This document shows, in pieces, positions 17,741-57,914 of a stretch of DNA of 64,000 nt. The notes beneath the pieces are model-generated. The model had not been told where the DNA came from. It ran no database searches and was given only the letters and a program-made list of their open reading frames with translations. The position numbers and the translations under genes are program-made. The first letter of the stretch is position 1. The number at the start of each line of letters is the position of its first letter. The stretch is taken from IMG/VR virus record IMGVR_UViG_3300031957_001675, positions 1-64,000 of that record; one strand, written 5' to 3'. This stretch comes from a virus.

Positions 17741-18169
17741 TTATCTTAGTTTTCCTCGTTTTGAATATCTTCTGAAGCCATCTCGTACTCTATTCCATAA
17801 GGCTCTCATAAGTGTTCTTTGACCTGTTCCAGTGTCTCGTACTGGACCTGTCATTATTGCTCTTTGTATATCCATAGCATCATACTTTTTACTTTTTACA
17901 CCATCCATCATCATTTTTATAGTTTGTGCAGATGCTTTACCTAAAATCTTTCCCATTTTCTGTATGTCTTTTTCTACTAATTGTTGAGCTTCTCGTGAAC
18001 TGTATGGTAATTGTGAGGGTGAAGTCAATGGTGCTTCACCAAAAACTTTTCTTGAAGTGAAAAAATCATATGCGTCTGAATTATTTGATATAACCTCTAT
18101 TGAACTTCTAGGTGCTTTAGTGAAAGAACTTTCATTTATAAGTTTTTTATATATTGATTTTTTACTCAC
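17741..18169 (-). CDS. Basic packaged-type protein with capsid-targeting leader (142 aa)
   Basis: The start MSKKSIYKKLINE|SSF carries a basic leader ending I-N-E before Ser, as expected for gp21 cleavage. The body is helical (EAQQLVEKDIQKMGKILGKA) and ends in a strongly basic Arg/Lys tail (RRYSKRGKLR), consistent with DNA contact. It overlaps the neighbouring 341-aa gene by one nucleotide and is the last gene before the promoter-like motif at 17730. No enzyme family is recognised. Packaging in the head is inferred from the leader and location. Confidence 0.6.
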   Translation of the reverse strand: MSKKSIYKKLINESSFTKAPRSSIEVISNNSDAYDFFTSRKVFGEAPLTSPSQLPYSSREAQQLVEKDIQKMGKILGKASAQTIKMMMDGVKSKKYDAMDIQRAIMTGPVRDTGTGQRTLMRALWNRVRDGFRRYSKRGKLR

Positions 18170-19194
18170 TAAAATCTACCTTTTAAAATACGACTAGCTT
18201 TTTGAGCAACTGCTCTACCATCATCAGGTGCTCGATAGTAAGATACCTTTTCACCTTTTGCTTTAGCTTCTTTTTCTCTTTCTTCATCATATCGTGATGA
18301 TTCAATATATCTTTCAAGTGAAGAATATAAATCTTGCATCTCACGAGCAATAGCAGTCAAGAAATCATATACTTTAGCCTCGTCATTCATCTTCCAACTA
18401 TTATATTTATTTAATAATTTTTTAAACTTGGCATCTTGTTTACCACCAATAGCTGTTGCAATTAAACCATTTGTAAAATCTTTAGCTGCTTTTACCTTAG
18501 CATTTACTTTTGCTGAATCTTTGTACGTTTGAGAAAGTAAATTTTTATATCTTCTTTCGTTTTCGTATCTAAAGTCACTATCATCTTTAAATTTCCAAGA
18601 ACCTTCTCCAGCTGCTTGTCTTAATTCTCTTTTTTCTTTACCACCCATATATGGCATATCGTCTTCAAGTGTAACTTGATAAAACACAATACCAGGTATT
18701 TTACGTACAGCTCTTAAACTTTGATAACCTAATTGATTTAATCCGAATGTTTCTTTGTTATCACCATAGAGGTCTGTTTTTTTACCACCACTTACACTCA
18801 TAGCTGAACCTACTGCCTTCTGTCTTTTTTTAGGAGCATTTCTCCAACTTTTTGTAAACCAAAGAGGTTTACCATCTTTCAATGTAAGAACTGCTGTATT
18901 TTTATCAACCTCTATATCACTATTCCATCTACTGTATCTACCACCTGGTTCTAATGATACTTTTTTAGTTGTGATTGCAAATTCAATACCTTTTTTCTTT
19001 GGTGTTCTATTCATTGTTAATTGACTATCTGTTATTTTATTCCACTCAACACCGTATTTAGCAGTGAAACTAAAAAAGTCTTTATCTAATCCTGTAAAGT
19101 TATTTGTCATCTTTCTTAAAATACTACTTTTGAAAGCTTCTGTTACAAGATATGAAACTTTTGATTCTTTTAGTATATTTTTTAACTTAATCAT
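18169..19194 (-). CDS. Packaged-type protein of unknown function with MIKLKNIL leader (341 aa)
   Basis: The leader MIKLKNILKE|SKVSYL matches those at 20111, 33131 and 48065 almost residue for residue. A second possible gp21 site (LVTE|AF) follows 10 residues later. The middle contains a beta-rich region with FGLNQLGYQSLRAVRKIPG, and the C-terminal half is a long charged helical region (SLERYIESSRYDEEREKEAK) ending RASRILKGRF-like. I do not recognise a fold or active site. The start and end overlap neighbours by 1 nt, so it is translated as part of the head operon. It is a candidate injected protein. Confidence 0.6.
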   Translation of the reverse strand: MIKLKNILKESKVSYLVTEAFKSSILRKMTNNFTGLDKDFFSFTAKYGVEWNKITDSQLTMNRTPKKKGIEFAITTKKVSLEPGGRYSRWNSDIEVDKNTAVLTLKDGKPLWFTKSWRNAPKKRQKAVGSAMSVSGGKKTDLYGDNKETFGLNQLGYQSLRAVRKIPGIVFYQVTLEDDMPYMGGKEKRELRQAAGEGSWKFKDDSDFRYENERRYKNLLSQTYKDSAKVNAKVKAAKDFTNGLIATAIGGKQDAKFKKLLNKYNSWKMNDEAKVYDFLTAIAREMQDLYSSLERYIESSRYDEEREKEAKAKGEKVSYYRAPDDGRAVAQKASRILKGRF

Positions 19195-20111
19195 TATGCT
19201 ATCCTTTTAACGTCTTTATCACCAATCAAAGCCGCTCCCACCTTTTTTAAGTTTTGAGCTGCTTGATTAACCATAGTGTATTTACCTAATTTAAATGGTT
19301 TGTTTTTAATCACTACGTATAACATACCTCTTTCAGTTTCAAACTGAAGTGGGAATGTTTTCTTTTTATCCATACCACGAATCTCAACTTCAATTTTAAA
19401 TCCAACCTTATCTCTCTTACTGACTTTAAATCCACCACCCATCATTTTAGCTGTCTTAGGTCTCATACCTGCTTTTTTAATTACAGTTGCTATACCACCT
19501 AAAAGCATATCAGCTCCTAAAGATGAGGCTTCATTTACGGATTCAGCAGGATTCATAATGTAATCACGAGACTTACCAACATAATCTTTAGCTAGTGTAA
19601 TCTTATCAGTCCACCAACTTGGTAATGAATCTTCGTTAGATTTTGATTTTAATGCGTTAATCACATCGTTTGCGTCTTGTACAATAAGTTTTAATTTTCT
19701 TTCTATTGAAGCTACATCTGTATGTCCGTCTTCATTTACTGATTCATTTTTCTTCATAAACTTATTCTTTAATCTTTGAAATATACTCTTAGACTTCTTA
19801 TGTAACGGATGGTCTTTATCACGAAGTGGTGTAACAGCACTTATCTTTTTACCAGTTGATGGGTTTTGAAGTTTCATCATCACCATAGCAGCGGCTGCAC
19901 TAGCTGCTGGATTTTCACTCATCAAATACTCTCTTACCTTATTTGGTAAGTCATCGTGTTTCGTAGATGCAAAATCTTTAGTTGATTTTTTCTTCATTGA
20001 TTTAGCTGCGTCCTTTACGGCTTTACTCACTTTACTTGCTGGAATTTCACCTTTTTTATAAGCGTGAACTAATCCCATAAATCTTTGTTGTGCTTTACTA
20101 ACTGAAGGCAT
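19194..20111 (-). CDS. DUF3008-like head-associated protein (305 aa)
   Basis: The N-terminal ~60 residues (MPSVSKAQQRFMGLVHAYKK ... KDFASTKHDDLPNKV) match my recollection of the short DUF3008 family common in marine phages. The protein continues with several candidate gp21 sites (LMSE|NPAAS, SVNE|DG, SVNE|AS) and a C-terminal basic beta domain (KMGGGFKVSKRDKVGFKIEV). It may be a polyprotein cut into two or three pieces in the prohead. It overlaps both neighbours by one nucleotide. The exact role is unknown. Confidence 0.6.
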   Translation of the reverse strand: MPSVSKAQQRFMGLVHAYKKGEIPASKVSKAVKDAAKSMKKKSTKDFASTKHDDLPNKVREYLMSENPAASAAAAMVMMKLQNPSTGKKISAVTPLRDKDHPLHKKSKSIFQRLKNKFMKKNESVNEDGHTDVASIERKLKLIVQDANDVINALKSKSNEDSLPSWWTDKITLAKDYVGKSRDYIMNPAESVNEASSLGADMLLGGIATVIKKAGMRPKTAKMMGGGFKVSKRDKVGFKIEVEIRGMDKKKTFPLQFETERGMLYVVIKNKPFKLGKYTMVNQAAQNLKKVGAALIGDKDVKRIA

Positions 20112-20458
20112 TATTTCATTTTCTTTCTAAGTCTAATCATCTCTCTCATAAACTTAGTTACTGTACCCTTATAAACTTTTTTAATTTCTTTGGCTATCTT
20201 CACGTTTTCTGGTCTTGCATCTCTAAGAAAAATTTGTTCTAATTTCAACATTCTTTCTCGTAATTTTGCTTCTGCCTTTACAATGCGTTGTACCTCTTGG
20301 TCTGCTGGTCTCTGTTCATCTGGACCTTCTGTAATACCACAGCAATCACCACCACAGTCACAATTTTTTTCATTCATTACATCTGTAAGTGTTGGTAATG
20401 GTTCACCAAACTTTCTGTCCCATGCACTTTCACTAAGTATTTGTTTTAACTTAATCAC
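20111..20458 (-). CDS. Packaged-type protein with MIKLKQIL leader and Cys cluster (115 aa)
   Basis: The start is GTG 20458, overlapping the upstream TGA as GTGA. The leader MIKLKQILSE|SAWDRKFGEPLPTL is shared with the gene at 33131, which has the same block with Asn for the first Ser after the cleavage site. A CDCGGDCCG cluster near residue 33 could bind a metal, and a basic helical C-terminus (FMREMIRLRKKMK) follows. The duplicated leader-plus-block suggests a functional head-entry or core-binding sequence longer than the leader alone. Function otherwise unknown. Confidence 0.65.
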   Translation of the reverse strand: MIKLKQILSESAWDRKFGEPLPTLTDVMNEKNCDCGGDCCGITEGPDEQRPADQEVQRIVKAEAKLRERMLKLEQIFLRDARPENVKIAKEIKKVYKGTVTKFMREMIRLRKKMK

Positions 20459-33130: not shown

Positions 33131-33583
33131 TTAATTCCTTTTGAACCTATTAACAATTTCCATTACGTGTAGTTTTATGAAGTTTGTATCTCTTTCGAAA
33201 TCATCATTTATCATCTCAGCTACACGACCTAATTTAAAAGATATTATATTAGTTAATTCTATAGCGTGTTCAACTGGGTCGTGGTCAACTTCTTCATCTT
33301 TCACGACTTGTTTTTCCATTTCAAATAAATGGTCTAAATCTTTAGCTGAACTCTTTACTAATTCTTTAGCACTGTCATCTAAATCTTTTTCTATAAGTTT
33401 GTTATATAATATGACTGCAGACTTACAAATATCAAAATGTTCAGTTTTGAACCCTAGTATATCTATATTTTCACCGCCACCAAAATGTTCTGGTTCCTCT
33501 TGTTCTAATTTTAATGTAGGTAGAGGTTCACCAAATTTTCTATCCCACGCATTCTCACTAAGTATGTTTTTTAATTTAATCAT
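33131..33583 (-). CDS. Packaged-type protein with MIKLKNIL leader (150 aa)
   Basis: The leader and following block MIKLKNILSE|NAWDRKFGEP continue LPTL, as in the 115-aa protein at 20111-20458; the two then diverge. The remainder is helical and acidic (KSAVILYNKLIEKDLDDSAKE, VVKDEEVDHDPVEHAIELTN), with no Cys cluster. The leader predicts targeting into the prohead core and gp21 cleavage after Glu10. The function after entry is unknown; the two proteins may form a pair. Confidence 0.65.
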   Translation of the reverse strand: MIKLKNILSENAWDRKFGEPLPTLKLEQEEPEHFGGGENIDILGFKTEHFDICKSAVILYNKLIEKDLDDSAKELVKSSAKDLDHLFEMEKQVVKDEEVDHDPVEHAIELTNIISFKLGRVAEMINDDFERDTNFIKLHVMEIVNRFKRN

Positions 33584-33585
33584 TT

Positions 33586-33948
33586 TTATGCACCTGTTTT
33601 TACTTTTATTGTTTTTTGTCCTTTAGTTCTTTCACCACCTTTTTTAGGGTCACCACCTTTTTTCTGTGCTGTTCTTTTTCGTTTAACAAAAGAAGCAATA
33701 CCTTTTTTACCTAATTTTCTAGCTTTAGTAGCAGATAAACATGCTGCGTATGCATCACCTTCTTCACTATCACCACACTTACCTAATTTTTTACCAGTAG
33801 AAGAGTATCTGTCCCAACCACCTTTTGTTGTACCACCTGCACCACCTTTACCAAACCATTTACGTAAGTCTTCATTTGTAGGTGTACCACAAAAGATACA
33901 TATGTTGTCTTTTATAGTTTGTATTGCTTTTTGTGTTTTTTCATTCAT
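33586..33948 (-). CDS. Conserved basic phage protein with Cys motifs (120 aa)
   Basis: The protein has an N-terminal CIFCGTP segment, then DLRKWFGKGGAGGTTKGGWDRY, KCGDSEEGDAYAACLSATKA and a strongly basic GIASFVKRKRTAQKKGGDPK tail. This order of motifs is familiar from cyanophage and other marine phage small proteins of unknown role. The Cys residues may bind zinc and the tail may contact DNA. It lies between the endolysin and a packaged-protein gene, overlapping the endolysin gene end by one base. A packaged or DNA-binding role is inferred only. Confidence 0.6.
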   Translation of the reverse strand: MNEKTQKAIQTIKDNICIFCGTPTNEDLRKWFGKGGAGGTTKGGWDRYSSTGKKLGKCGDSEEGDAYAACLSATKARKLGKKGIASFVKRKRTAQKKGGDPKKGGERTKGQKTIKVKTGA

Positions 33949-34445
33949 TATACTGATAATGCCCTTTTATACCAACCGAATATGAATCGTTCTTGTTCAG
34001 GTTTTTTATTCACTAAATCATAGTAGTGTTTTAATCTGTAACAACGAACTCTATCTAATTCAGGTGTATGTTTTGCTAATGCTGCTTTTGTACCTGGTCC
34101 AAATCCCCCATCAACAGTCAAATCACCTCCCTTACCATTAATGGCTCTTTGTAATATTTTTACAGCAGTACCTCTACCTTGATTTACACACATATCAAAA
34201 AAGATGTGTTTTAAATCATCGGGTAAATCATCTACTTTATTTTTGTCCCAGTAGTCTTTTTTATAAATATCTTTTGCATCTTCTTTTGTAAGATTTTTTA
34301 TATCAACATCAGGGTAAAATCGTTTAGCTATACCAAAGTTTGTCTCACCACCTAAATCTTTTGGGTCGTGGACGTATCCGCCTTCGTGATGTAGTGTTAT
34401 TTCGATTATTTCATCAAATGTTGTTAAAATTTTATCATTTTTCAT
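33948..34445 (-). CDS. Endolysin, GH108-type N-acetylmuramidase with peptidoglycan-binding domain
   Basis: The start is ATG 34445 (MKNDKILTTFDEIIEITLHH), behind GGGAGTAAACCT; the longer upstream frame lacks a ribosome binding site. The N-terminal domain has the GH108 signature HHEGGYVHDPKDLGGETNFG with the catalytic Glu at residue 21, followed by YKKDYWDKNKVDDLP. A C-terminal peptidoglycan-binding region has TVDGGFGPGTKAAL and a KPEQERFIFGWYKRA end, as in known muramidases. It has no signal peptide, so it needs a holin; candidate holin and spanin genes lie at 49.6-50.6 kb, well separated. Confidence 0.88.
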   Translation of the reverse strand: MKNDKILTTFDEIIEITLHHEGGYVHDPKDLGGETNFGIAKRFYPDVDIKNLTKEDAKDIYKKDYWDKNKVDDLPDDLKHIFFDMCVNQGRGTAVKILQRAINGKGGDLTVDGGFGPGTKAALAKHTPELDRVRCYRLKHYYDLVNKKPEQERFIFGWYKRALSV

Positions 34446-34501
34446 AGGTTTACTCCCTAGTAACTTTATTATATATTGTAAAATGCTATATATATTCATT
34501 A

Positions 34502-48064: not shown

Positions 48065-49264
48065 CTACTTTTCATAGTCGAGTGAAAAATCTTTATAACC
48101 ATACTTATCCCAACTAGCTACTTCGTCTTCAAAACCTTCATATTTATCACTTGTATTTATAATTTTTTTAATTACTTGTACTATAGGTGTCTTTTCATCT
48201 TTATCGTCATAAATGTTATCAGCTTGTGGAAAATCTTCTTGTGTATAACCACCTTTTTCAAACCAAGGTTCTGGTTTATTATCACTAATACCTAAAATTC
48301 TAGGTAATCCTGTAGATAGAAATCCTGTATCTGGTTCACCACCATCTGCTGAATAACTATTATTATTAGAACTACTTTCCGTAACCACCTCTATTATTTT
48401 ATTTTTCCATTTACGATATTCTCTCTTACCCCACTTTTCAGCTATCTCTTCAAACTTATTATCATCGTGAAAGTCACCACCTTTTTGTACAGCTAGTTCA
48501 CCTGCTACAGTATAAAACTTCTCATATTTTTTAGCACCCATTTTCTTTCTATCTAATGCGTGTTTAATTTCGTGTAAAACTGTTATTAAAAATTCTTTGA
48601 CACTCGAATAACTTTTTCTTAAATTTATAGTGTCGGTTATCCAATCATAATCTGCCATATTATTACCACTTGTAAATCTTACTTTTGATTTTAATCGATA
48701 TTTTTTTACCAATTTTTCAGCTGTATCTAAAAAGTCAATTCTTTCCAATAACAGATAACCTGTTGTGTTTTCTATTGATTTTTTTAATGATTTCTTTTTT
48801 GCTTCCCATTCCTCTGGTTTAATAAAACCTGTGGCACCTTTTAGACCTTTTATATTCGCAGTTCGTGATGCCTCATCTATATTGTTTATTACTTTAATAA
48901 CTCTTTTATCAAATGGTTTTGGTAATTCATCTATAGGAAAATAACCCCAATCAGTATGTTCGTGATTTATACGGGGTACAAATTGTTTATCACCTTTACA
49001 CATAAAAACGTGAAATTGACCACCTTTGTTTTTAGGTGATTTATGTGAAAATTTAATTGGTTTATTAAGTATGATTTGAGTCTCTTCAGAAAACTCTCTG
49101 TAAGCACCTTCTTCAGGTGTTTCATCGATATGAATATGACCTTTAGGTATACCCCACAAACCTTCAGTGCTTAAACAACAAAGCAAAGTATTATTATAAA
49201 AGTAAGCTATACCAGCTGCGTCTTTTGAATCTTTACTTTCTATTATTTGTTTTAATTTAATCAT
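48065..49264 (-). CDS. Packaged Nudix hydrolase-zinc metalloprotease fusion (399 aa)
   Basis: The start is ATG 49264 (MIKLKQIIE|SKDSKD), whose leader is near-identical to four head-module proteins and predicts gp21 cleavage after Glu9. A Nudix box spans residues 42-64 (GHIHIDETPEEGAYREFSEE). A second domain has a zinc-protease motif HEIKH at 231-235 with ADYDWITDTINLR before and VAGELAVQ after (third ligand candidate). A further site VTE|SSS near residue 300 separates an acidic tail (FLDYEK end). Nudix enzymes hydrolyse nucleoside-diphosphate-X compounds. Injection with the DNA is inferred; substrates are unknown. It overlaps the zinc-ribbon gene upstream by 8 nt. Confidence 0.8.
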   Translation of the reverse strand: MIKLKQIIESKDSKDAAGIAYFYNNTLLCCLSTEGLWGIPKGHIHIDETPEEGAYREFSEETQIILNKPIKFSHKSPKNKGGQFHVFMCKGDKQFVPRINHEHTDWGYFPIDELPKPFDKRVIKVINNIDEASRTANIKGLKGATGFIKPEEWEAKKKSLKKSIENTTGYLLLERIDFLDTAEKLVKKYRLKSKVRFTSGNNMADYDWITDTINLRKSYSSVKEFLITVLHEIKHALDRKKMGAKKYEKFYTVAGELAVQKGGDFHDDNKFEEIAEKWGKREYRKWKNKIIEVVTESSSNNNSYSADGGEPDTGFLSTGLPRILGISDNKPEPWFEKGGYTQEDFPQADNIYDDKDEKTPIVQVIKKIINTSDKYEGFEDEVASWDKYGYKDFSLDYEK

Positions 49265-49466
49265 TACATATCTCACAAGAACAATTTTTTAATTCTTCAG
49301 GTAATTCTGTTCTTGTTATTTCATTCCCGTCTTTGTCTTTTATAGTTAAATCAGAAGGTTTTTTTACCATAATATCTTCTACAGCTAAGTCATCAATATG
49401 ACAGCCACAATGATTACATACTTTAGAAATTTGTTGACCACTTGATGTAAACTTTACTCGTATCAT
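49257..49466 (-). CDS. Small four-Cys zinc-binding protein (69 aa)
   Basis: The protein (MIRVKFTSSGQQISKVCNHC) has CNHCGC near residue 17 and a C-terminal CSCEICND, enough ligands for one zinc. The middle has KDKDGNEITRTELPEELKN. The start codon overlaps the upstream TGA as ATGA, and the 3' end overlaps the Nudix gene. No family is recognised; it could be a small rubredoxin-like or regulatory protein. Confidence 0.6.
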   Translation of the reverse strand: MIRVKFTSSGQQISKVCNHCGCHIDDLAVEDIMVKKPSDLTIKDKDGNEITRTELPEELKNCSCEICND

Positions 49467-49839: not shown

Positions 49840-50562
49840 CTATTTCCAATCCCAAAGTTTTATGAGATTATAAGTAATACCTATACCCCATATTGGTTCT
49901 GTTAAACCTGTTATTTGATTATATGTTACACCTAACATAGGTCCTATTGAAATTTGATTTCTTGGTGGTTTGATTTTAATCACCTCACTTTTACCACCTT
50001 TTATTTTCAAATTCAAAAATTCATTATCTGGGTAAATAGCTTGAAATTCATATCTATCTAATTTCTCTATCGAAGGAGGTCCTAAATTAAGTTCTCCTTC
50101 AAAGTCGGCTATTGTTTCAGATTGTACGACTTTATTGTCTTTTATACGAAGACCAGTTCTACCAAAGACTTTTATATAACTATCTTGAGTCCCAAATTCT
50201 TTTAAAAAAGGAACTGTAGAAGCTTCAACACTTAATAACTCTAATCGCATTAACTCTAACGTGTCTTGAAGATTCTGTATTTTTTGTTCGTATTCTTTAC
50301 TCCAACGAACTATGTCATATAAATCTTTAGATAATGTTTTAAATTTTTTATCTTGAGTATCATTATCTTTTTGTAATTTTTTTGTTATAGTTGATAAACT
50401 ATCTATAGAACTTTCATTTGTGACTATTAATTGTTCTTGTCTATCACTATCACTTTTAAGAAAATCAACTTCTTGTTTAGCATAAAAGTAACGAACACCT
50501 ATTATTGTTAAAACTGTAATTATGTTTATTAAGTTTATACCTATTACGTAACTTTTTTTCAT
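49840..50562 (-). CDS. Spanin-like protein: TM anchor, coiled coil, C-terminal barrel-like end (240 aa)
   Basis: An N-terminal membrane segment (INLINIITVLTIIGVRYFY) is followed by ~90 residues of coiled coil (SLSTITKKLQKDNDTQDKKF) and a periplasmic beta region. The end (SIGPMLGVTYNQITGL, then WGIGITYNLIKLWDW) reads like a short outer-membrane-type hairpin. Rz-type proteins of Bacteroidota phages have a similar order as I recall (DUF6808-type). An inner-membrane anchor, coiled coil and outer-membrane-facing end would let it fuse the membranes at lysis. The position next to the holin-like gene supports this. The start overlaps the upstream TGA. Confidence 0.5.
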   Translation of the reverse strand: MKKSYVIGINLINIITVLTIIGVRYFYAKQEVDFLKSDSDRQEQLIVTNESSIDSLSTITKKLQKDNDTQDKKFKTLSKDLYDIVRWSKEYEQKIQNLQDTLELMRLELLSVEASTVPFLKEFGTQDSYIKVFGRTGLRIKDNKVVQSETIADFEGELNLGPPSIEKLDRYEFQAIYPDNEFLNLKIKGGKSEVIKIKPPRNQISIGPMLGVTYNQITGLTEPIWGIGITYNLIKLWDWK

Positions 50563-50699
50563 TTTGATAACTCCTTACTTGCATAATCTTTTAAGACATC
50601 AGGTAACCAAGCGTGAATAAAAAGAGCTCCACTCAATTTCATTGCTCTCAACCAATGTGACCAATACCCAATGTTATTTTCTTTTAAATGTTTTATCAT
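50559..50699 (-). CDS. DUF6356-like small protein (46 aa)
   Basis: ATG at 50699 overlaps the TGA of the CsgG-like gene, and its own TGA overlaps the spanin-like ATG. The sequence (MIKHLKENNIGYWSHWLRAM, then LSGALFIHAWLPDVLKDYAS) matches the small DUF6356 family pattern (H-x-x-x-G-x-x-Y-x-x-H, later HAxxP) found in phages and bacteria. One amphipathic or membrane-associated helix is likely. The function is unknown; its place inside the envelope cassette suggests a membrane role. Confidence 0.65.
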   Translation of the reverse strand: MIKHLKENNIGYWSHWLRAMKLSGALFIHAWLPDVLKDYASKELSK

Positions 50700-51301
50700 T
50701 TTAAATCTTTTGTTGCTATATCAATTGCTTTTCTTACAGCTCCTCCTAGTTCACTTTGATTAAAAGGTAAACTCTCTTCTATTTGTAAAGCTGTTGCTGT
50801 AATGTTTGTCTGTATTGTACCTGTACCTCGTCCTGTCATCACTCTACCTGTAGCTACTTCTTGGACCATCACGTTCATACGAACTTCTGTTTCTGTTTTT
50901 CTACGATTAAATATACCTATAATACTAAAAGCCTCATCAGGTCTACCGACATAAACGATTTCTGCTGTCACAACAAAATTAGCATTGTCATCAGCTACTA
51001 GGTTATATTTACTTTCAGAAAATGTTTCTTCTAACAACTGACGAACTCCCATTGTTACTCTGTCGTCTTGTATACCAACTCTATCTGCTACTCTTACAAA
51101 CTCACTAATCTTTAGTGTTGGTACAATCAAGTCCTCACCTAATATAGCTGGTTGTGGTAGTGCAGATTCTTTTTGTTCTTGTAATTTTTTTTCACGTTCT
51201 TTATCACGTTCTAATCTTGAACGCATTATCTCACCTTGACCTGATGCTATTTCCATCATAGCGAATCCTAGTAGTAAGAAAATTAAGAATCTACGTTTCA
51301 T
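50696..51301 (-). CDS. CsgG-like exported protein (201 aa)
   Basis: A signal peptide (MKRRFLIFLLLGFAMMEIAS|GQ) has no lipobox Cys. After a charged helix, the body resembles the CsgG/LpoB fold: GVRQLLEETFSESKYNLVAD, then ANFVVTAEIVYVGRPD, EVRMNVMVQEVATGRVMTG and a late LGGAVRKAIDIA helix. CsgG proteins form outer-membrane curli export pores; relatives are periplasmic activators. A second CsgG-like lipoprotein (52300) lies in the same operon, with a barrel between them. GGAGACAAAA precedes the ATG. Pore formation is not shown, because the transmembrane hairpins of true CsgG are not obvious here. Confidence 0.6.
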   Translation of the reverse strand: MKRRFLIFLLLGFAMMEIASGQGEIMRSRLERDKEREKKLQEQKESALPQPAILGEDLIVPTLKISEFVRVADRVGIQDDRVTMGVRQLLEETFSESKYNLVADDNANFVVTAEIVYVGRPDEAFSIIGIFNRRKTETEVRMNVMVQEVATGRVMTGRGTGTIQTNITATALQIEESLPFNQSELGGAVRKAIDIATKDLK

Positions 51302-51310
51302 TTTTGTCTC

Positions 51311-52294
51311 CTAAAAATAAGTCCCAAATAATACTGAAAATGTTTTGTTTCTATCCCCATAATCATTTACAACTGTATTGTACCCCATTGATATACCCAC
51401 ATTAAATGTAAATGCTGTACCTACTCTCCAATCAAATGAAATAGTAGGGAAGAAGATTATAGGACTTCTCAAGAATAAATATCGACCACCTTCAATATTT
51501 CCTTCATAATATCGCAGTAGAGTATATGCTATATAACTTGAAAATGTTACCTCACCAAAATTAAATTTGGCAGGATATCTAATAGCGTACATTCCTGTTA
51601 CATTTCCAAATCCAACACCACTTACTCTACCATAACTCATTGTCAATACTGCAGCTTCAGGGTTACTTTTAACAAGTGATTTAGCTGCTGAAGCACTTAA
51701 CAACCAATCCCAACCTTCAAACGTTTTATAAGTCAATCCACTTGATGATAATTGTAAACTTTGTTTTTTAGCTTTAAATCTGAATCCTCGTCCATACGTC
51801 AAAGATGTTTTTCTGAAATCATTTGTAAAGTTAAAGTTACCATCGTGTCTACTACTACCATCAAATGATGTAGCGGTATAAACACTATTAAACTGAGTTA
51901 TCCATCTATCTTCTCCTTGTGTAGAACGAATAGCATAGTTAACCTGAGTTGGGTCATTACTAATATCACTTTTACTAAATTGTTCAGTAACGTTATCAGC
52001 AATGACTGAAGATAATATTTCTTCAGCTACTTTAACGGCACACGGAAAAAGTCTTTCAAAATCATTATAAACTTTTTCAGTCCAAGATTCTAACTGACCT
52101 TCTAATACTTCTTGTAATGTAAAAAACTTAGTACGATTGTAATAAGTAACTTGAAATCCTTGTTGACCATCACCACCTATAACGGTGTTTGTTCTAATAA
52201 CGGTTTGTTCACAAGGGTCTACATAACTATAAAAGAATGATTGGGCAGAGATACTACTCAATAAAAATAAAAAACTAAATAACCTCTGCCTCAT
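51311..52294 (-). CDS. Outer-membrane beta-barrel protein (327 aa)
   Basis: A signal peptide (MRQRLFSFLFLLSSISAQ) is followed by ~130 residues of globular, partly helical sequence with two Cys (DPCEQTVIRT, LFPCAVKVAEEI). The C-terminal ~190 residues alternate as amphipathic beta strands (KTSLTYGRGFRFKA, VLTMSYGRVSGVGFG, FSSYIAYTLLRYYEG) and end in an aromatic residue (SVLFGTYF), the usual signal for barrel insertion. It lies between two CsgG-like genes. It may be a surface protein, porin or exclusion factor; no family is recognised. Confidence 0.65.
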   Translation of the reverse strand: MRQRLFSFLFLLSSISAQSFFYSYVDPCEQTVIRTNTVIGGDGQQGFQVTYYNRTKFFTLQEVLEGQLESWTEKVYNDFERLFPCAVKVAEEILSSVIADNVTEQFSKSDISNDPTQVNYAIRSTQGEDRWITQFNSVYTATSFDGSSRHDGNFNFTNDFRKTSLTYGRGFRFKAKKQSLQLSSSGLTYKTFEGWDWLLSASAAKSLVKSNPEAAVLTMSYGRVSGVGFGNVTGMYAIRYPAKFNFGEVTFSSYIAYTLLRYYEGNIEGGRYLFLRSPIIFFPTISFDWRVGTAFTFNVGISMGYNTVVNDYGDRNKTFSVLFGTYF

Positions 52295-52299
52295 TCATA

Positions 52300-52935
52300 T
52301 TACCAACCTCGTTTGTCAATAGCTTTTATAACATTGACTACGGCTGTCTCCATAGCTTTATTTGATGCAGAACTAAGTGAACTTTGATTCCAATCCATAT
52401 TTGGATTCATTAAAAATCCTTTACCTATGGTTGAAGCAGTTCCTCTTCCACTACCTACAACATATTGTGTGTTTTCATTGTTGATGAGTTTTACTTGTAT
52501 ACCAACAAATGTTTCGTTGATTGTTTCAACTTTACCAGCTTTGATTTCTTCTTTTAGATTTACACCAAAGTCATAAATACTTACACTAGCAGAATACTTT
52601 GCTTTTGTAATCTTGGCTTTGTTAGCTTTTAAATCATTCATAATTAAAAGTTGCATATCTCTTTCAGCTTCAACTAAATTAAATCTACCAACATAAGAGA
52701 TTACATTTTGAAGTTCTTGAACAAGACCCATAGAAACTCTCTTCTCAGCTAGTTCAGGGTATCTTTCTTCTAACTCTTTATTAAACTTCAAATCATAAAG
52801 TTTCAATCCATCAACTTTTGTTACTTCAATCTCATCTAATGATTTTTGTTTTTCATATTCACCAACGTATTGTTCTGTTGATACTGATGCAGCACAACCA
52901 AAGAATACTAATAGTAAAGGTAATATTTTAATCAT
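52300..52935 (-). CDS. CsgG-like lipoprotein (211 aa)
   Basis: The start is ATG 52935 (MIKILPLLLVFFGC), since GGAGAGACAA lies in place and the codon overlaps the upstream TGA as ATGA. The lipobox LLVFFGC gives a lipidated Cys at residue 14. The body (KRVSMGLVQELQNVISYVGR, FNLVEAERD, KYSASVSIYDFG, VVGSGRGTAS, then a SNKAMETAVVNVIKAI helix) has the CsgG-type order of ABC-like beta-alpha units. Residue 15 is Ala and not Asp, so export to the outer membrane by Lol would be expected under the E. coli rule. Its partner may be the CsgG-like gene at 50696 or the barrel between them. Confidence 0.6.
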   Translation of the reverse strand: MIKILPLLLVFFGCAASVSTEQYVGEYEKQKSLDEIEVTKVDGLKLYDLKFNKELEERYPELAEKRVSMGLVQELQNVISYVGRFNLVEAERDMQLLIMNDLKANKAKITKAKYSASVSIYDFGVNLKEEIKAGKVETINETFVGIQVKLINNENTQYVVGSGRGTASTIGKGFLMNPNMDWNQSSLSSASNKAMETAVVNVIKAIDKRGW

Positions 52936-53303
52936 TTGTCTCTCCATATAATTGGTTTTTTACCACCATCTTTTTTCTTATCTTTCCAAGAATCTTCACC
53001 GACTTTATATCCGATGTAATATGAAACACCTGCAACAACTAATGTATGAATCATACGACGTGTTCTCATCTTCTGACGAGCTTGTCTTACCACTATTTGT
53101 TTATTTCGAACACCTTGTTTCTGATTCATTTTCATATGTGCCCTTTTATGAGCCGCTTCATACTTTTTAAAATCCCAATCTTGAATTGTTTTTACTACTT
53201 TCTCACCTGTAGTTTCTTTAACATCTTGTGCTACTAATTGTGTACCTACAGATAACGCTATTATTATAGCAAATAGTATCCAAAACTTTTTATTATTTTT
53301 CAT
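52932..53303 (-). CDS. Exported small membrane protein (123 aa)
   Basis: The signal peptide MKNNKKFWILFAIIIALSVG (cleavage after QLVAQ) is clearly related to that of the PorV/PorQ-like gene at 54093. The middle is basic and His/Arg/Gln-rich (AAHKRAHMKMNQKQGVRNKQ), and a second hydrophobic segment (MIHTLVVAGVSYYIGYKVG) precedes a Lys-rich tail. GGAGAGAATA precedes the ATG. No family is recognised; it is probably a small envelope protein acting with its neighbours. Confidence 0.6.
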   Translation of the reverse strand: MKNNKKFWILFAIIIALSVGTQLVAQDVKETTGEKVVKTIQDWDFKKYEAAHKRAHMKMNQKQGVRNKQIVVRQARQKMRTRRMIHTLVVAGVSYYIGYKVGEDSWKDKKKDGGKKPIIWRDK

Positions 53304-53638
53304 TATTCTCTCCTCGTGGTTCTTCTACCACCTCTACTTTTACCACCTTTGTGACCACCTTTGTTATTACCTCTACGATATTCACCACTTCTTTTTTTCT
53401 TTGGTTTGATGTAAACATATTTAGGTGTGTCTACATAATAATTTACACCATAGTAATAATCCCTATAGTTTTTGTTCCAATATAGGTCTGAGTATGAGTT
53501 TCTAAAATGTACATCATAATATACGTTGTAGTACGCTTGAGAAACTCTTGTACTATCGTTTGGTATGACAGGTTCTCTGTCGAAACTACCAATCGAAATG
53601 CCGATAATTAAACCGGTTATGAGTTCTAATATTCCCAT
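53303..53638 (-). CDS. Tyr-rich membrane-anchored or exported protein (111 aa)
   Basis: A short hydrophobic start (MGILELITGLIIGISIGS) may be a signal anchor. The middle is unusually rich in Tyr and Asn (YYNVYYDVHFRN, YRDYYYGVNYYVD), and the last 30 residues are Lys/Arg/Gly-rich (RRGNNKGGHKGGKSRGG). Low-complexity Tyr-rich, Gly/Arg-rich sequences tend to aggregate or coat surfaces. A GGAGATAT site and 1-nt overlap with the next gene indicate expression. The function is unknown. Confidence 0.6.
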   Translation of the reverse strand: MGILELITGLIIGISIGSFDREPVIPNDSTRVSQAYYNVYYDVHFRNSYSDLYWNKNYRDYYYGVNYYVDTPKYVYIKPKKKRSGEYRRGNNKGGHKGGKSRGGRRTTRRE

Positions 53639-53645
53639 ATATCTC

Positions 53646-54035
53646 CTATCTAAAATCTGATAAAGGGTCTTTAAGTAGTTCTTCTAGCTTCTTGATTTCT
53701 CTTTTTAGATTTTTGATTTCATTGTTTAAGTTAGCTACATCTTTATCATAAGATTTAACTTTAGGTGTTTTTAAGTTATCAAGTTTATCACGAAGATATT
53801 TAATATCCTCATCATACCCATCTAACTTAGATGTTACTAATTCAATATCACTTGCTTCCGCGAAACCCTCTACAACTTCTTCTAATCCATCAATACGACC
53901 AGTAAACGAATACCAACCAGCAATACCAGTTGATAATACAGTTACAAGTGCTATGATATTTTGGATTGATAATCCAAACTTTTTATTTTTTATTTCTTCT
54001 ACTGCTGCTTCAGCATCGACTATATTTTTTGCCAT
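53646..54035 (-). CDS. Single-TM coiled-coil protein (129 aa)
   Basis: A 25-residue charged N-terminus precedes one membrane segment (IQNIIALVTVLSTGIAGWYS). The rest is a heptad-type coiled coil (YLRDKLDNLKTPKV, VANLNNEIKNLKREIKKLEE). The orientation places the coil in the periplasm or cytoplasm; it cannot be decided. It resembles a second inner-membrane spanin-type subunit, or a scaffold for the envelope cassette. AAGGAGATAAGTT precedes the ATG. Confidence 0.6.
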   Translation of the reverse strand: MAKNIVDAEAAVEEIKNKKFGLSIQNIIALVTVLSTGIAGWYSFTGRIDGLEEVVEGFAEASDIELVTSKLDGYDEDIKYLRDKLDNLKTPKVKSYDKDVANLNNEIKNLKREIKKLEELLKDPLSDFR

Positions 54036-54092: not shown

Positions 54093-54980
54093 TTAAAACT
54101 CCAAGTTTATTGTTAATCTAATTGTGTTACTTAATGGTAACGTCTTGTCTCCATAAATATAACTCATACCAATAAGATACTTATCATATTTAAAATCTAA
54201 TCCAAATGTAGGGTAGGTTAATTTGTGCATATTATCTATGTAATATCCAGTTTTTCCCCATAACATATTTTTATAATTGTAACCTGTTCCTATACCAAAT
54301 GTTTGATGTTTTTTCATTCTATTAAATTGACCATAAAACATCCATTCTTTATATGGGTATGTTCCAGCTACATTTACACTTGTAGGTAGTTCTGATTTGT
54401 ATTCACCAAACTTAGGTGCAAATCCAAAGTTACGAACCATGACATCTAAATCTAAATCTTTATATACTTTAGGAAAATACCATCCTAATCCGAGTATTAA
54501 TCCTGTGGCTTTTTCTGAGAATAAATCGTGATGTACTATCTTACTTTCAATACCCCAATAATAATCTTTTATCAAACCTCCAAAAGCTGTTCCTGGAGCT
54601 TTACCTCCCCAATTGAATCCCCATACAGAACTCAAAGGAGTAAATTGTCCTAAAATTATTCCGTATTCATCAGCTTGATTCTGTTCTCCATAATTAAAAA
54701 ACAAAACATCAATTCCATATTGTTGACGTTCAACTCTTATATAGTTGTAGTTCATATCATTAACAATACTCGTCATCCAATTCACTCTACTAAAACTGAA
54801 ATGGTCTTTATCAAAAAGATTACGAGCTGGATTCATCATTGGTAACATTACATTACCAATAGAACTTACTTGAGCAGTTGGTGCTAACGTAAGTATTCTA
54901 TTTGCTTGTGCTAATAGTTGACTACTTAACGATAATAATATCGCTAAACTGAATAATATCCAAAATTTATTTTTTTTCAC
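54093..54980 (-). CDS. PorV/PorQ-like (UPF0164-type) outer-membrane protein, T9SS-associated family
   Basis: The preferred start is GTG 54980, giving the signal peptide MKKNKFWILFSLAILLSLSS (cleavage after QLLAQ) behind GGAAGAAAAAC; a longer TTG start would spoil it. After cleavage, ILTLAPTAQVSSIGNVMLPM then MNPARNLFD and SFSRVNWMTSIVNDMNYNYI follow the PorV/PorQ order (early small-residue turn, N-P-A motif, then alternating strands). About 14 strands end in IRLTINLEF with a terminal Phe. PorV carries T9SS cargo to the sortase; PorQ supports cell-surface attachment. The cargo-type gene with a sorting tail lies just upstream. Family by pattern; FadL/OmpP1-type barrels are the alternative. Confidence 0.6.
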   Translation of the reverse strand: MKKNKFWILFSLAILLSLSSQLLAQANRILTLAPTAQVSSIGNVMLPMMNPARNLFDKDHFSFSRVNWMTSIVNDMNYNYIRVERQQYGIDVLFFNYGEQNQADEYGIILGQFTPLSSVWGFNWGGKAPGTAFGGLIKDYYWGIESKIVHHDLFSEKATGLILGLGWYFPKVYKDLDLDVMVRNFGFAPKFGEYKSELPTSVNVAGTYPYKEWMFYGQFNRMKKHQTFGIGTGYNYKNMLWGKTGYYIDNMHKLTYPTFGLDFKYDKYLIGMSYIYGDKTLPLSNTIRLTINLEF

Positions 54981-55083
54981 GTTTTTCTTCCATTTTTTCT
55001 GAAAACCAAACAATAAGTTTCATCGTATAATATAATGCTGGTAACATCAGTGCTACTGCTAAAAAGAATTGTCCTTCATTCAT
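54967..55083 (-). CDS. Small single-TM protein (38 aa)
   Basis: ATG at 55083 overlaps the upstream stop as TAATG, behind GGTGGTGAAA. The peptide MNEGQFFLAVALMLPALYYT then MKLIVWFSEKMEEKREKK has one hydrophobic segment and a charged tail. Its end overlaps the start of the PorV/PorQ-like gene by 14 nt, so translation of the two is probably coupled. The function is unknown. Confidence 0.55.
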   Translation of the reverse strand: MNEGQFFLAVALMLPALYYTMKLIVWFSEKMEEKREKK

Positions 55084-57914
55084 TATTTCACCACCGTAAA
55101 TTTATTTGCTTTTATTTTATTGTTTGTTTGCATTACAAATATATAAACACCTGGTTCAAGTTTTTGATGATTTTCATATACGCTCATCTCTGGTATCCAA
55201 ACACTTGGTTCGTTTGTAAAATCAAAAGTATGTAATCCAGCCATTACGTGTTCATTTAGTAATGTCCCTACCTTCTGTCCTATTGAATTTAAGATATATA
55301 ATTTTACATCTTTTGATTGGGGTAGATAGAATTGGAATGTAGTATTTTCTTTGAATGGATTCGGATAGTTGTAAGTAATACCATCACCATCTGGTTCTGA
55401 ACCTCCGAATGCCCAATACTTATTCCATACTAATACTTGTCCGTCATTTCGTTTCATCAATAAGTCTCTACCCGCTGGTGTACCTGCTGAATACTTACCA
55501 GTAAATCTTATTGGAGCTGTTGTCCACTCTCTATCAGGAAAATCAGCTTCGAATAATAAATTCAACCCTGTAATCTCTTTGTCAATCCAATACGTTTCAG
55601 GTTTATTACTAGGTGAATAATCAACACCTCCAAATGATACTTTTCTCCAACCATCTACTGCTTCGTGAACATTTACATACGTCATCCAAGGGCCTGGTAG
55701 AACGTCAGTTTTCATATCTATAAATTTTAACTCGTCTTCTTTATACTCAACTTCAAATTCAAATCCTGCTAACAAAACTTCGTCTATTGGTGTGATAGTC
55801 AAAGGAACTTCTATTTGATTACCAGATTGAACTCGTACGGTTGAATCAGCAGGTAACGATAAAGTTACGTCAGGATTTATTGATTGATTGTTCGTAATTA
55901 CTTTGTTTACATAATTAGAAGGAGCACTACCACCTTTCCATCTATGAAACATTATATTGGAGGCTATATCATTTTGATAACCATCTCCTCCACTCTCTGA
56001 TACTTTCGTACCCGTATTGTTTATGTCACCTGTAAAGTAATATCCAATGTCTGGTATCAAGTAATCTGGGTTACCTACTTGACCAGTTCTTTCATATAAT
56101 CTATCTTTATGCCACGAAGAATATCCACCACCTAATATTAAGTGAAGTGTATCTAGTCCTGTTTGATGGTCATCCATCAGAGGGTTGATAGTTTCTATCT
56201 GACCAAATGTTAAAGCCTTTTGATTTGTGGCTAAAGCTCTTGTTGTTGTGGTTGGAGATTTAAAACCATTATTATCACCCGAACTTCTATCACCAGCTGT
56301 ACCTGATTCTGCTGTTGTGGTCTCATCCCAATATACCGTGAACTCATATTTTTGTGGTCGTGATTGTCCGTTCACCGTTTGATAATAAGTGTAATCATTA
56401 GCATTACCACTTTCTTTAAAAACCTCGATAGTCGCCCAATCTTCGTAAGAATTTCCATTATGATGAGTATAGTTGTTTAAGATACCTGAAACATAAGCCC
56501 ATAAAATATAAGTGTCGTTTAACTGATACACATCGTCACCATCAACATCACCAACTAAATATTCGATAGCTGTTAAAGTATCTATTCGACCACCACCACT
56601 ATTGTAGTTATGATGTTTACCTGATTGGAAATTGAATGAAGCTATAGCATCATTAGCATTTGTAATAGCCGTTCTGTCTAACTCAAGTTGTGTATGTGCT
56701 TCAATATTATCACTTGCATCGGGTGGCCAAAATGATATACGATATCTATTGTTTCTTGGTAACTGAATATTATAATATCCTTTATCATCGGTATAAGTAG
56801 AATCATAATAACTTATACCAAGAAATCCCTCTTTGGGTAATGCTTGTAAAGCAGTTGTTGATTTGTTATCATAATAAAATGTTGCTGTGTGGTCTCCGAT
56901 AATATCATCAGAATTATCCTCATCAACTAAATTAGCTTCGTTTGTAGTAGTCTCAAAGTTTAACCAGTTAGTTATTCTTGGACTGAAGTTAGCTTCATTG
57001 TGGTCTAACTCAAATTTTACTTTCCAATATGGATATGTATTCTCCGCTGGTGCACTCCAAGCCGCTCCAAGAGCTCTATCTTTACCTTGAGCATATCTGA
57101 AGTATCCTTCAACATCTAGTAGTTTTGGGTGTAGTGTTATATCACCTCTAGCTCCACCTATACCAACTTGTTCTGTACCAGTGTTACCATCAATGTAAAC
57201 TTTGTAATTAGAACCATAAAGACCGTTTGTAACGTATGTGTAATACCCTATACTACCATCATATTTTGTAGCAACTCTAAAAGCTTTCGGAGCAAAGTTA
57301 TCAGCTACATCATTGACCTTAAAATGTAATTTCAATAACTCTGTTTGTGTACCGTTACCATTACCAAAAGTTTTCACATTACCATTGTGAGATACCATTG
57401 TTATTCTCAACCAATCATATCTTGTATCAGTAACGGATAGTTCATCATCTGCGTCAGCTAATGAATCGGTATATCCCACATTCTCATATCTGACGACTTC
57501 GTATGAATAATGTGCTCCGGCTGAACTATCACCTTCTGTCCAACCTGAAATGTAAGCTCCTTTTTCAACGTGAGTTGAGTCGTGTCCCCAAGTAAATAAA
57601 TCATTGTCGAAAGCTAAATCTAAACGAAAGGCAGTAACACTAGCTCCGTTATCATCAAGAGTAACAGCTAAAGTCATTACTGAATCTCTCCAGGCATCGA
57701 AGTTATTGTTCTTATATGCAACACCTACTGCGGCATTAGATGTGTTCATACCGGTAGTGTCATCTGCCAAGTAACCTCTTAGTTTAAAGGTTTCTGAGTC
57801 TCTCCACCAAAACTTAGGTGTTTTATATTCTCTTGATTGCATAAGTCTAATTATTGGTGTTTGAGTATAAGAAAAACTCATCAACAATATTAAACTTAAT
57901 AAAAATTTACGCAA
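55083..57914 (-). CDS. Secreted protein with cohesin/dockerin-like parts and T9SS sorting tail (943 aa)
   Basis: TTG 57914 follows a GAGGAG site. Signal peptide MRKFLLSLILLMSFSYTQ. Cohesin-like beta regions lie at ~70-215 and ~685-815 (SGNQIEVPLTITPIDEVLLA). A dockerin-like calcium loop (GDVDGDDVYQLND) is near 455-467. The last ~96 residues (848-943) are a type A T9SS tail: YNYPNPFKENTTFQFYLPQS, then VKLYILNSIGQKVGTLLN, AGLHTFDF and LEPGVYIFVMQ. Such tails route Bacteroidota/FCB proteins across the outer membrane, where they are cut and anchored. A phage cannot use it outside such a host. A PorV/PorQ-like gene lies two genes downstream. Role inferred: display on the infected cell surface. Confidence 0.82.
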   Translation of the reverse strand: MRKFLLSLILLMSFSYTQTPIIRLMQSREYKTPKFWWRDSETFKLRGYLADDTTGMNTSNAAVGVAYKNNNFDAWRDSVMTLAVTLDDNGASVTAFRLDLAFDNDLFTWGHDSTHVEKGAYISGWTEGDSSAGAHYSYEVVRYENVGYTDSLADADDELSVTDTRYDWLRITMVSHNGNVKTFGNGNGTQTELLKLHFKVNDVADNFAPKAFRVATKYDGSIGYYTYVTNGLYGSNYKVYIDGNTGTEQVGIGGARGDITLHPKLLDVEGYFRYAQGKDRALGAAWSAPAENTYPYWKVKFELDHNEANFSPRITNWLNFETTTNEANLVDEDNSDDIIGDHTATFYYDNKSTTALQALPKEGFLGISYYDSTYTDDKGYYNIQLPRNNRYRISFWPPDASDNIEAHTQLELDRTAITNANDAIASFNFQSGKHHNYNSGGGRIDTLTAIEYLVGDVDGDDVYQLNDTYILWAYVSGILNNYTHHNGNSYEDWATIEVFKESGNANDYTYYQTVNGQSRPQKYEFTVYWDETTTAESGTAGDRSSGDNNGFKSPTTTTRALATNQKALTFGQIETINPLMDDHQTGLDTLHLILGGGYSSWHKDRLYERTGQVGNPDYLIPDIGYYFTGDINNTGTKVSESGGDGYQNDIASNIMFHRWKGGSAPSNYVNKVITNNQSINPDVTLSLPADSTVRVQSGNQIEVPLTITPIDEVLLAGFEFEVEYKEDELKFIDMKTDVLPGPWMTYVNVHEAVDGWRKVSFGGVDYSPSNKPETYWIDKEITGLNLLFEADFPDREWTTAPIRFTGKYSAGTPAGRDLLMKRNDGQVLVWNKYWAFGGSEPDGDGITYNYPNPFKENTTFQFYLPQSKDVKLYILNSIGQKVGTLLNEHVMAGLHTFDFTNEPSVWIPEMSVYENHQKLEPGVYIFVMQTNNKIKANKFTVVK

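Follow-up and report, generated by a model that had tools for sequence, protein, structure and literature searches.

A 64,000-nucleotide stretch of a virus genome (positions 1 to 64,000 of the 65,575 bases of IMG/VR record IMGVR_UViG_3300031957_001675; hereafter "the window") encodes a secreted protein that ends in a sorting tail of the type IX secretion system (T9SS), together with an outer-membrane barrel of the PorV type. In cells, T9SS tails of type A are collected by PorV at SprA (PMC12618676). We propose that the tailed protein is a cohesin-bearing cargo exported by the T9SS of the host, that in a marine branch of these phages the barrel is a cognate PorV shuttle supplied by the phage, and that the likely purpose is an altered cell surface. 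Taken as a whole, we give this reading somewhat better than an even chance. The observations under it are the identity of the sequences, their fold, their place in the tree, the fixed pairing and a difference in the tail. The features of the pair are as follows.

55083..57914, minus strand: T9SS cargo protein, 943 aa (TIGR04183, PF18962, PF00963; 71 viral loci)
57864..57914, minus strand: cargo signal peptide, cleavage before Gln18 (hydrophobic N terminus, Q at +1)
56487..56573, minus strand: dockerin-like motif GDVDGDD...LND, residues about 448-476 (motif-level)
55410..55841, minus strand: cohesin domain, residues about 692-835 (PF00963, right on the cut-off at E 4.4e-5)
55086..55367, minus strand: T9SS type A sorting tail, residues 850-943 (TIGR04183)
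55161..55211, minus strand: insertion in the tail, residues about 902-918, only in PorV-carrying phages
54967..55083, minus strand: 38-aa membrane peptide between the cargo and PorV-like genes, MNEGQFFLAVALMLPALYYTMKLIVWFSEKMEEKREKK
54093..54980, minus strand: PorV-like outer-membrane barrel, 295 aa, GTG start (NF033709; mechanical open reading frame (ORF) to 55013)

Export of the cargo through the T9SS is well supported. Residues 850-941 match TIGR04183 (E 1.5e-4, 21.6 bits, cut-off 23) and the tail also matches PF18962 (E 3.4e-4), in agreement with an earlier, sequence-only reading of the window, which had called this protein a T9SS cargo. A TIGR04183 match was found in all 36 distinct marine PorV-carrying relatives (E <= 0.01; best 1.1e-9), from which we conclude that the match in the window is no chance hit, and at the same threshold in 20/20 representative cargos of phages that lack PorV. 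Bit scores above the cut-off were reached by relatives L079 (29.1) and L054 (35.6) and by the Flavobacterium phage immuto (45.4). Neither TIGR04131, the type B tail, nor TIGR03519, the PorP/SprF barrel, was among the matches of the window proteins.

The cargo gene starts at a TTG codon with a GAGGAG ribosome-binding site, and this start position is common to its relatives. The predicted Sec signal peptide, also proposed by the sequence-only reading, has a hydrophobic N terminus followed by Gln18, which is invariant in 36 relatives. That reading had further named cohesin- and dockerin-like parts, of which the cohesin is borne out beyond the PF00963 match: the C-terminal half of an AlphaFold2 model matched the cohesins 1g1k and 2vn5 (TM (target) 0.77) and 2w1n (E 2.3e-11) in Foldseek, as well as cohesin-plus-Ig modules. 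The model of the whole cargo was poor (pLDDT 56), and the C-terminal part alone was used. The dockerin-like part stands at the level of a motif, in which D456, D458, G459, D460, D461, L465, N466 and D467 are invariant in 36 relatives; the dockerin hidden Markov model (HMM) had no match in the cargo. A cohesin and a dockerin-like motif in one chain would permit head-to-tail self-association of the cargo. The median dN/dS is about 0.2 for both the cargo and PorV-like genes (0.195 and 0.208), which indicates purifying selection on both.

The barrel gene probably starts at the GTG at 54980, because it lies as far from the cargo stop as the ATG start does in L003 and because the longer TTG form (55013) overlaps the small ORF upstream. 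The product had been described as PorV/PorQ-like, and we find that it is PorV-type, not PorQ-type. At the level of the PorV/PorQ family (NF033709) the window protein scored 76.5 bits (E 2.7e-21) and that of the divergent relative L054 95.1, with a cut-off of 90. The PorV equivalog (NF033710) gave 43.8 bits for the window and 52 for L054, which do not reach the cut-off of 250, while host PorVs scored 276-293. A search of PDB sequences by hmmsearch with a profile of the barrel returned PorV as the only match (6h3i_F, 1.2e-14). An AlphaFold2 model built with 34 viral relatives (pLDDT 85.6) has the predicted PorV fold, a FadL-type barrel with an N-terminal helix, and its two best PDB matches in Foldseek were both PorV, chain F of the T9SS translocon (8gl6, 1.3e-12; 6h3i, 4.1e-11; TM 0.70/0.69), followed by FadL at 1.7e-7. 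In a tree of 29 PorV-family proteins from Bacteroidota genomes and 19 viral ones, whose PorV and PorQ rows were confirmed with NCBIfam, the viral rows formed one clade joined to true PorV (support 99/95), with PorQ and the other family members on the opposite side. The proposal that the phage carries its own shuttle homologue is supported, and the PorQ half of the label falls away. The sequence-only reading had named three findings that would overturn it, namely a C-terminal end with no match to T9SS sorting domains, a host that lacks T9SS and a barrel structure unrelated to PorV/PorQ; none of them was seen. The phage barrel shares with host PorV (PDB 6h3i/8gl6 chain F) its fold, its best sequence match and a sister position, and differs from it in length (295 versus about 360-400 aa), in an identity of about 14% in the structural alignment and in its scores below the equivalog cut-off. 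It is also the fastest-evolving among the module genes compared (mean p-distance 0.53). No relatives of the barrel were found in 50,697 phage records, no PorV was found among predicted viral structures, and plain tblastn found neither PorV nor cargo in cultured phages.

The two genes form a fixed pair. Of 61 viral contigs that bear the barrel, 60 carry an intact tailed cargo directly upstream, and in the remaining, short contig the last 33 residues of the cargo are visible at the same place; the search of related phage contigs suggested by the sequence-only reading thus recovered the pair in 61/61, one of them by the C-terminal end of the cargo. Spacing between cargo and barrel in the 60 contigs runs from -4 to 495 bases, and the longer gaps may hold small ORFs. 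Such an ORF was seen in 24/36 distinct relatives, a few of them probably spurious, and in the window the cargo is indeed two genes upstream of the barrel, as had been stated, when the 38-aa membrane peptide is counted.

The tail itself had been called a full type A tail. That description has to be amended in one respect, since the tail carries an insertion of about 17-20 residues that precedes the last two strands. The distance from the PNP motif to the C-terminus is 94-100 residues in 48/48 cargos of PorV-carrying phages and 77-83 in 33/33 cargos of phages without PorV (those in which the PNP motif was detected), with no overlap. In a Flavobacteriales metagenome-assembled genome (MAG) that includes a contig of the same phage clade, the match on the phage contig spans 92 residues, and the other 41 tail matches span 80 or fewer. 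These data suggest a link between the lengthened tail and the phage PorV. Because they occur on a single evolutionary branch, the association is suggestive and is not proof. A more specific co-evolution of PorV and tail was considered and rejected, as the correlation of their distances was no higher than that of PorV with a neighbouring gene.

The cargo belongs to a much wider phage module. The sequence-only reading, whose observation of the pair is confirmed, missed this module along with the restriction of PorV to one branch. Directly behind the tail structural genes, the minus strand encodes in order the cargo, the 38-aa peptide, the barrel, a coiled-coil membrane protein, a lipoprotein and secreted proteins. 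The members downstream of the barrel are listed here.

53646..54035, minus strand: conserved module member of 129 aa, a one-transmembrane (one-TM) coiled-coil protein (50 related loci, at 53-91% identity once near-identical copies are set aside)
53303..53638, minus strand: small variable module protein (10/77 related loci)
52932..53303, minus strand: small secreted protein, variable, Q after the signal peptide (11/77 related loci)
52300..52947, minus strand: core lipoprotein of the module, 215 aa (29/29 distinct relatives have the lipobox Cys)
51311..52294, minus strand: core secreted protein of the module, 327 aa, possibly a barrel (Gln follows the signal peptide in 27/29)
50696..51301, minus strand: secreted paralogue of the lipoprotein, 201 aa (profile cross-matches; Q at +1 in 24/27)
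49840..50562, minus strand: one-TM coiled-coil protein, spanin-like (weak matches to phrog_739 (Rz-like) and TIGR03495 LysB)

The lipoprotein gene has at least 578 related viral stretches in IMG/VR, and among cultured phages it occurs in four records only, all of them immuto. Wherever a divergent locus was examined over a stretch that included the lipoprotein, a protein with cohesin and tail lay upstream. The module consists of cohesin-plus-tail protein, membrane protein, lipoprotein and secreted proteins. The same components in the same order are found in Flavobacterium phage vB_FspM_immuto (MW353176), whose module comprises immuto35A_15 (cohesin; TIGR04183 45.4 bits), a small membrane protein, a lipoprotein and secreted proteins. 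Homology of the cohesin and tail region with immuto is backed by profile comparison (E 2.7e-12 and 4.8e-9); the window lipoprotein is homologous to immuto35A_17 (E 3e-31), and the profile of the 327-aa protein matches its counterparts in immuto and other phages without PorV at E 1e-8 to 1e-15. Unlike the window, immuto has a canonical short tail, a cargo apparently split into two genes, and no PorV. PorV is limited to the marine branch of the module-bearing phages: it was absent from immuto and from 12 long records without PorV (105-227 kb), and was detected in 4/4 controls. As an observation on the split, immuto35A_14 and immuto35A_15 (L088:7599-9423) seem to correspond to a single gene of 634-658 aa in L191-L195, which are other phages without PorV, with a domain order that looks alike by eye. 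We considered immuto gp14 as the counterpart of the N-terminal half of the cargo on the basis of a similar motif order (cohesin-like, GDxNGTG), and set this aside since the profile comparison was not significant. The paralogous lipoprotein (52300-52947) and secreted protein (50696-51301) had no family match. An identity of the module lipoproteins with CsgG, which had come from a residue pattern, is unsupported by Pfam, PDB and genome searches: the CsgG HMM (PF03783) was empty in three viral records and positive in four control genomes, and the lipoproteins had no PDB match.

The virus is T4-like, as had been proposed, with T4-type PHROG matches for its major capsid protein (phrog_138), portal (phrog_213) and terminase (phrog_2). 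The closest capsid proteins from cultured phages include those of Microcystis phage Mel-JY01 (56%), immuto (52%) and Rhodothermus phage RM378 (38%). The Mel-JY01 capsid (PP395634, L083) is worth a remark of its own, as this phage is stated to infect a cyanobacterium; the cargo and PorV profiles both fail to match it, and its host assignment or a host jump is a possible point of interest. For the window phage, a T9SS-bearing Bacteroidota host is likely, as the sequence-only reading had supposed, given three lines of evidence: the signal peptides follow the Q-rule, a contig of the same clade is binned in the Flavobacteriales MAG (whose 42 tail matches include one on that contig), and Flavobacterium is the host of the cultured homologue. 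Gln follows the predicted cleavage site in 33/40 distinct cargo sequences (by a simple rule) and in 35/35, 27/29 and 24/27 distinct sequences of other secreted module proteins. The Q-rule is typical of Bacteroidetes and fails across the FCB group as a whole (PMC5837995), and it has been used likewise for Porphyromonas phages (PMC10367356). Marinimicrobia, a host suggested by the YNYPNPF style of the tail, was set aside because reports of the rule concern Bacteroidetes and do not extend to the FCB group as a whole, and because the MAG and the cultured phage point to Flavobacteriales.

How might the module work? The cargo would cross the inner membrane via Sec, and its type A tail would then engage the SprA translocon of the host. 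A PorV-family barrel would collect it, and in the marine branch the phage would supply this barrel as a cognate shuttle, with the tail altered alongside it by lengthening before the last two strands. We consider it likely that the phage PorV is the cognate shuttle for the phage tail. Type B T9SS cargos have their shuttle genes directly downstream (PMC12618676), and this known cellular layout lends support to our reading. The phage pair resembles SprB-SprF (PMC12618676) in being a dedicated pair with the shuttle gene directly behind the cargo gene, and differs in that SprB-SprF joins a type B tail to a PorP/SprF shuttle, whereas the phage joins a type A-like tail with an insertion to a PorV-family barrel, in a virus. 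The cohesin-bearing protein would probably be displayed on, or shed from, the cell surface late in infection. Most likely, the altered surface of the infected cell would block adsorption of further phages, or hold cells or progeny. A more specific version, in which marine T4-like phages run a private route through SprA, independent of host PorV, by means of their own PorV and altered tail and a self-associating cohesin cargo, is tentative, with chances a little short of even.

Several points weigh against this reading. Both the tail and the barrel of the window itself fall below curated cut-offs (21.6 versus 23 bits and 76.5 versus 90). The association between lengthened tail and PorV belongs to a single branch and hence amounts to one event, and the correlation of PorV and tail distances (0.82) is equalled by that between PorV and a gene next to it (0.82). 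In cells, every type A substrate uses the common PorV (PMC12618676), and we found no cellular precedent for a private type A shuttle. Finally, the host of the window phage is itself inferred.

Other explanations would place the module in lysis or assign one of its proteins a different task. The module could act in lysis, with the cargo, barrel, lipoprotein and coiled-coil proteins serving to weaken or fuse the outer membrane or to mask receptors on debris, and with display on living cells secondary. The proteins at 49840-50562 and 53646-54035 have spanin-like matches, which are weak coiled-coil matches, and the module adjoins tail structural genes. An endolysin and/or holin-like gene adjoins it in relatives L174, L191 and L193, and it is such neighbours in some relatives that keep the lysis explanation alive. 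In the window, however, the GH108 endolysin is 15 kb from the module, and disruption of the outer membrane needs neither a T9SS tail nor a PorV shuttle; we judge lysis unlikely. (That endolysin, at 33948-34499, carries a peptidoglycan-binding domain and matches PF05838 at E 3.4e-26.) Alternatively, the phage PorV could replace host PorV at SprA and so block or reprogram the T9SS, removing phage receptors that it exports. A barrel with the PorV fold that is sister to true PorV, and that evolves fastest among the compared module genes, fits this, but the barrel was never seen without the cargo in the 61 contigs, and the cargo itself would need a working T9SS. We assign such jamming a low probability.

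It is very unlikely that the barrel is a general porin of the FadL/PorV superfamily, used for uptake or receptor change and unconnected to cargo export. FadL proteins do come next among the structural matches, but PorV lies far above them (1.3e-12 versus 1.7e-7) and is the only PDB sequence match, and the pairing with the cargo is fixed. Least credible of all is that the cargo is a virion protein, a head or tail decoration whose tail-like end has merely the Ig-type fold common to sorting tails. The position of its gene directly behind tail structural genes would fit this, but the signal peptide with Q at +1, the secreted or membrane nature of the neighbours, and T9SS HMM matches in every relative, including those of phages without PorV, all speak against it.

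The sequence-only reading stated that no phage system of this kind had been described, which does not hold in that form: phage-encoded type A T9SS cargo proteins, with a suggested role in superinfection exclusion, were published for Cryophage in 2020 (PMC7468147). The literature covered, which was open-licence papers, gave us no account of a phage PorV. Phage-encoded T9SS cargo is thus prior art, and phage PorV is, as far as we could find, apparently unreported. The window resembles Cryophage in bearing type A tails on phage proteins, with use of the host T9SS presumed. It differs in that the Cryophage proteins, which come from metagenomic islands, are a variable set of enzymes or PA14 proteins, with no phage shuttle reported, whereas the window has a conserved cohesin cargo in a core module together with a phage PorV. 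There is also a parallel in the csgFG operon of pelagimyophages and methylophage Melnitz (PMC7029224, PMC9004378), which are likewise T4-like marine phages with outer-membrane secretion parts of their own; theirs is a Type VIII (curli) pore and not a part of a T9SS, and the CsgG HMM does not match the window lipoproteins.

Other features of the window lie outside the module. An N-terminal peptide of the form MIKLK-x-[IL]-[IL]..E is found on unrelated proteins (37 distinct ORFs in 22 viral loci) and on none of 1,614 opposite-strand ORFs. It occurs in the window at 18169-19194, 20111-20458, 33131-33583 and 48065-49276, and also in L003, L005, L079 and others; it is possibly a capsid-targeting or other sorting peptide. 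The protein encoded at 48065-49276 contains a NUDIX domain (PF00293, E 5.4e-13) and weakly matches MPTase-PolyVal. No RNA families or tRNAs were found in the window, and candidate T4-like late promoters (TATAAATA) were not enriched (17 versus 12.5 expected).

Earlier work had found T9SS cargo in viruses occasionally; here, in a large phage group, the gene for a T9SS-tagged cargo belongs to the core. The implication is that infection of Bacteroidota regularly involves display on the surface via the T9SS. The cultured immuto phage makes the role of the cargo directly testable. The phage PorV, sister to the host shuttle, and the lengthened tail together constitute a natural experiment in tail recognition by shuttles, and one that bears on the possibility of a private shuttle for a type A substrate.

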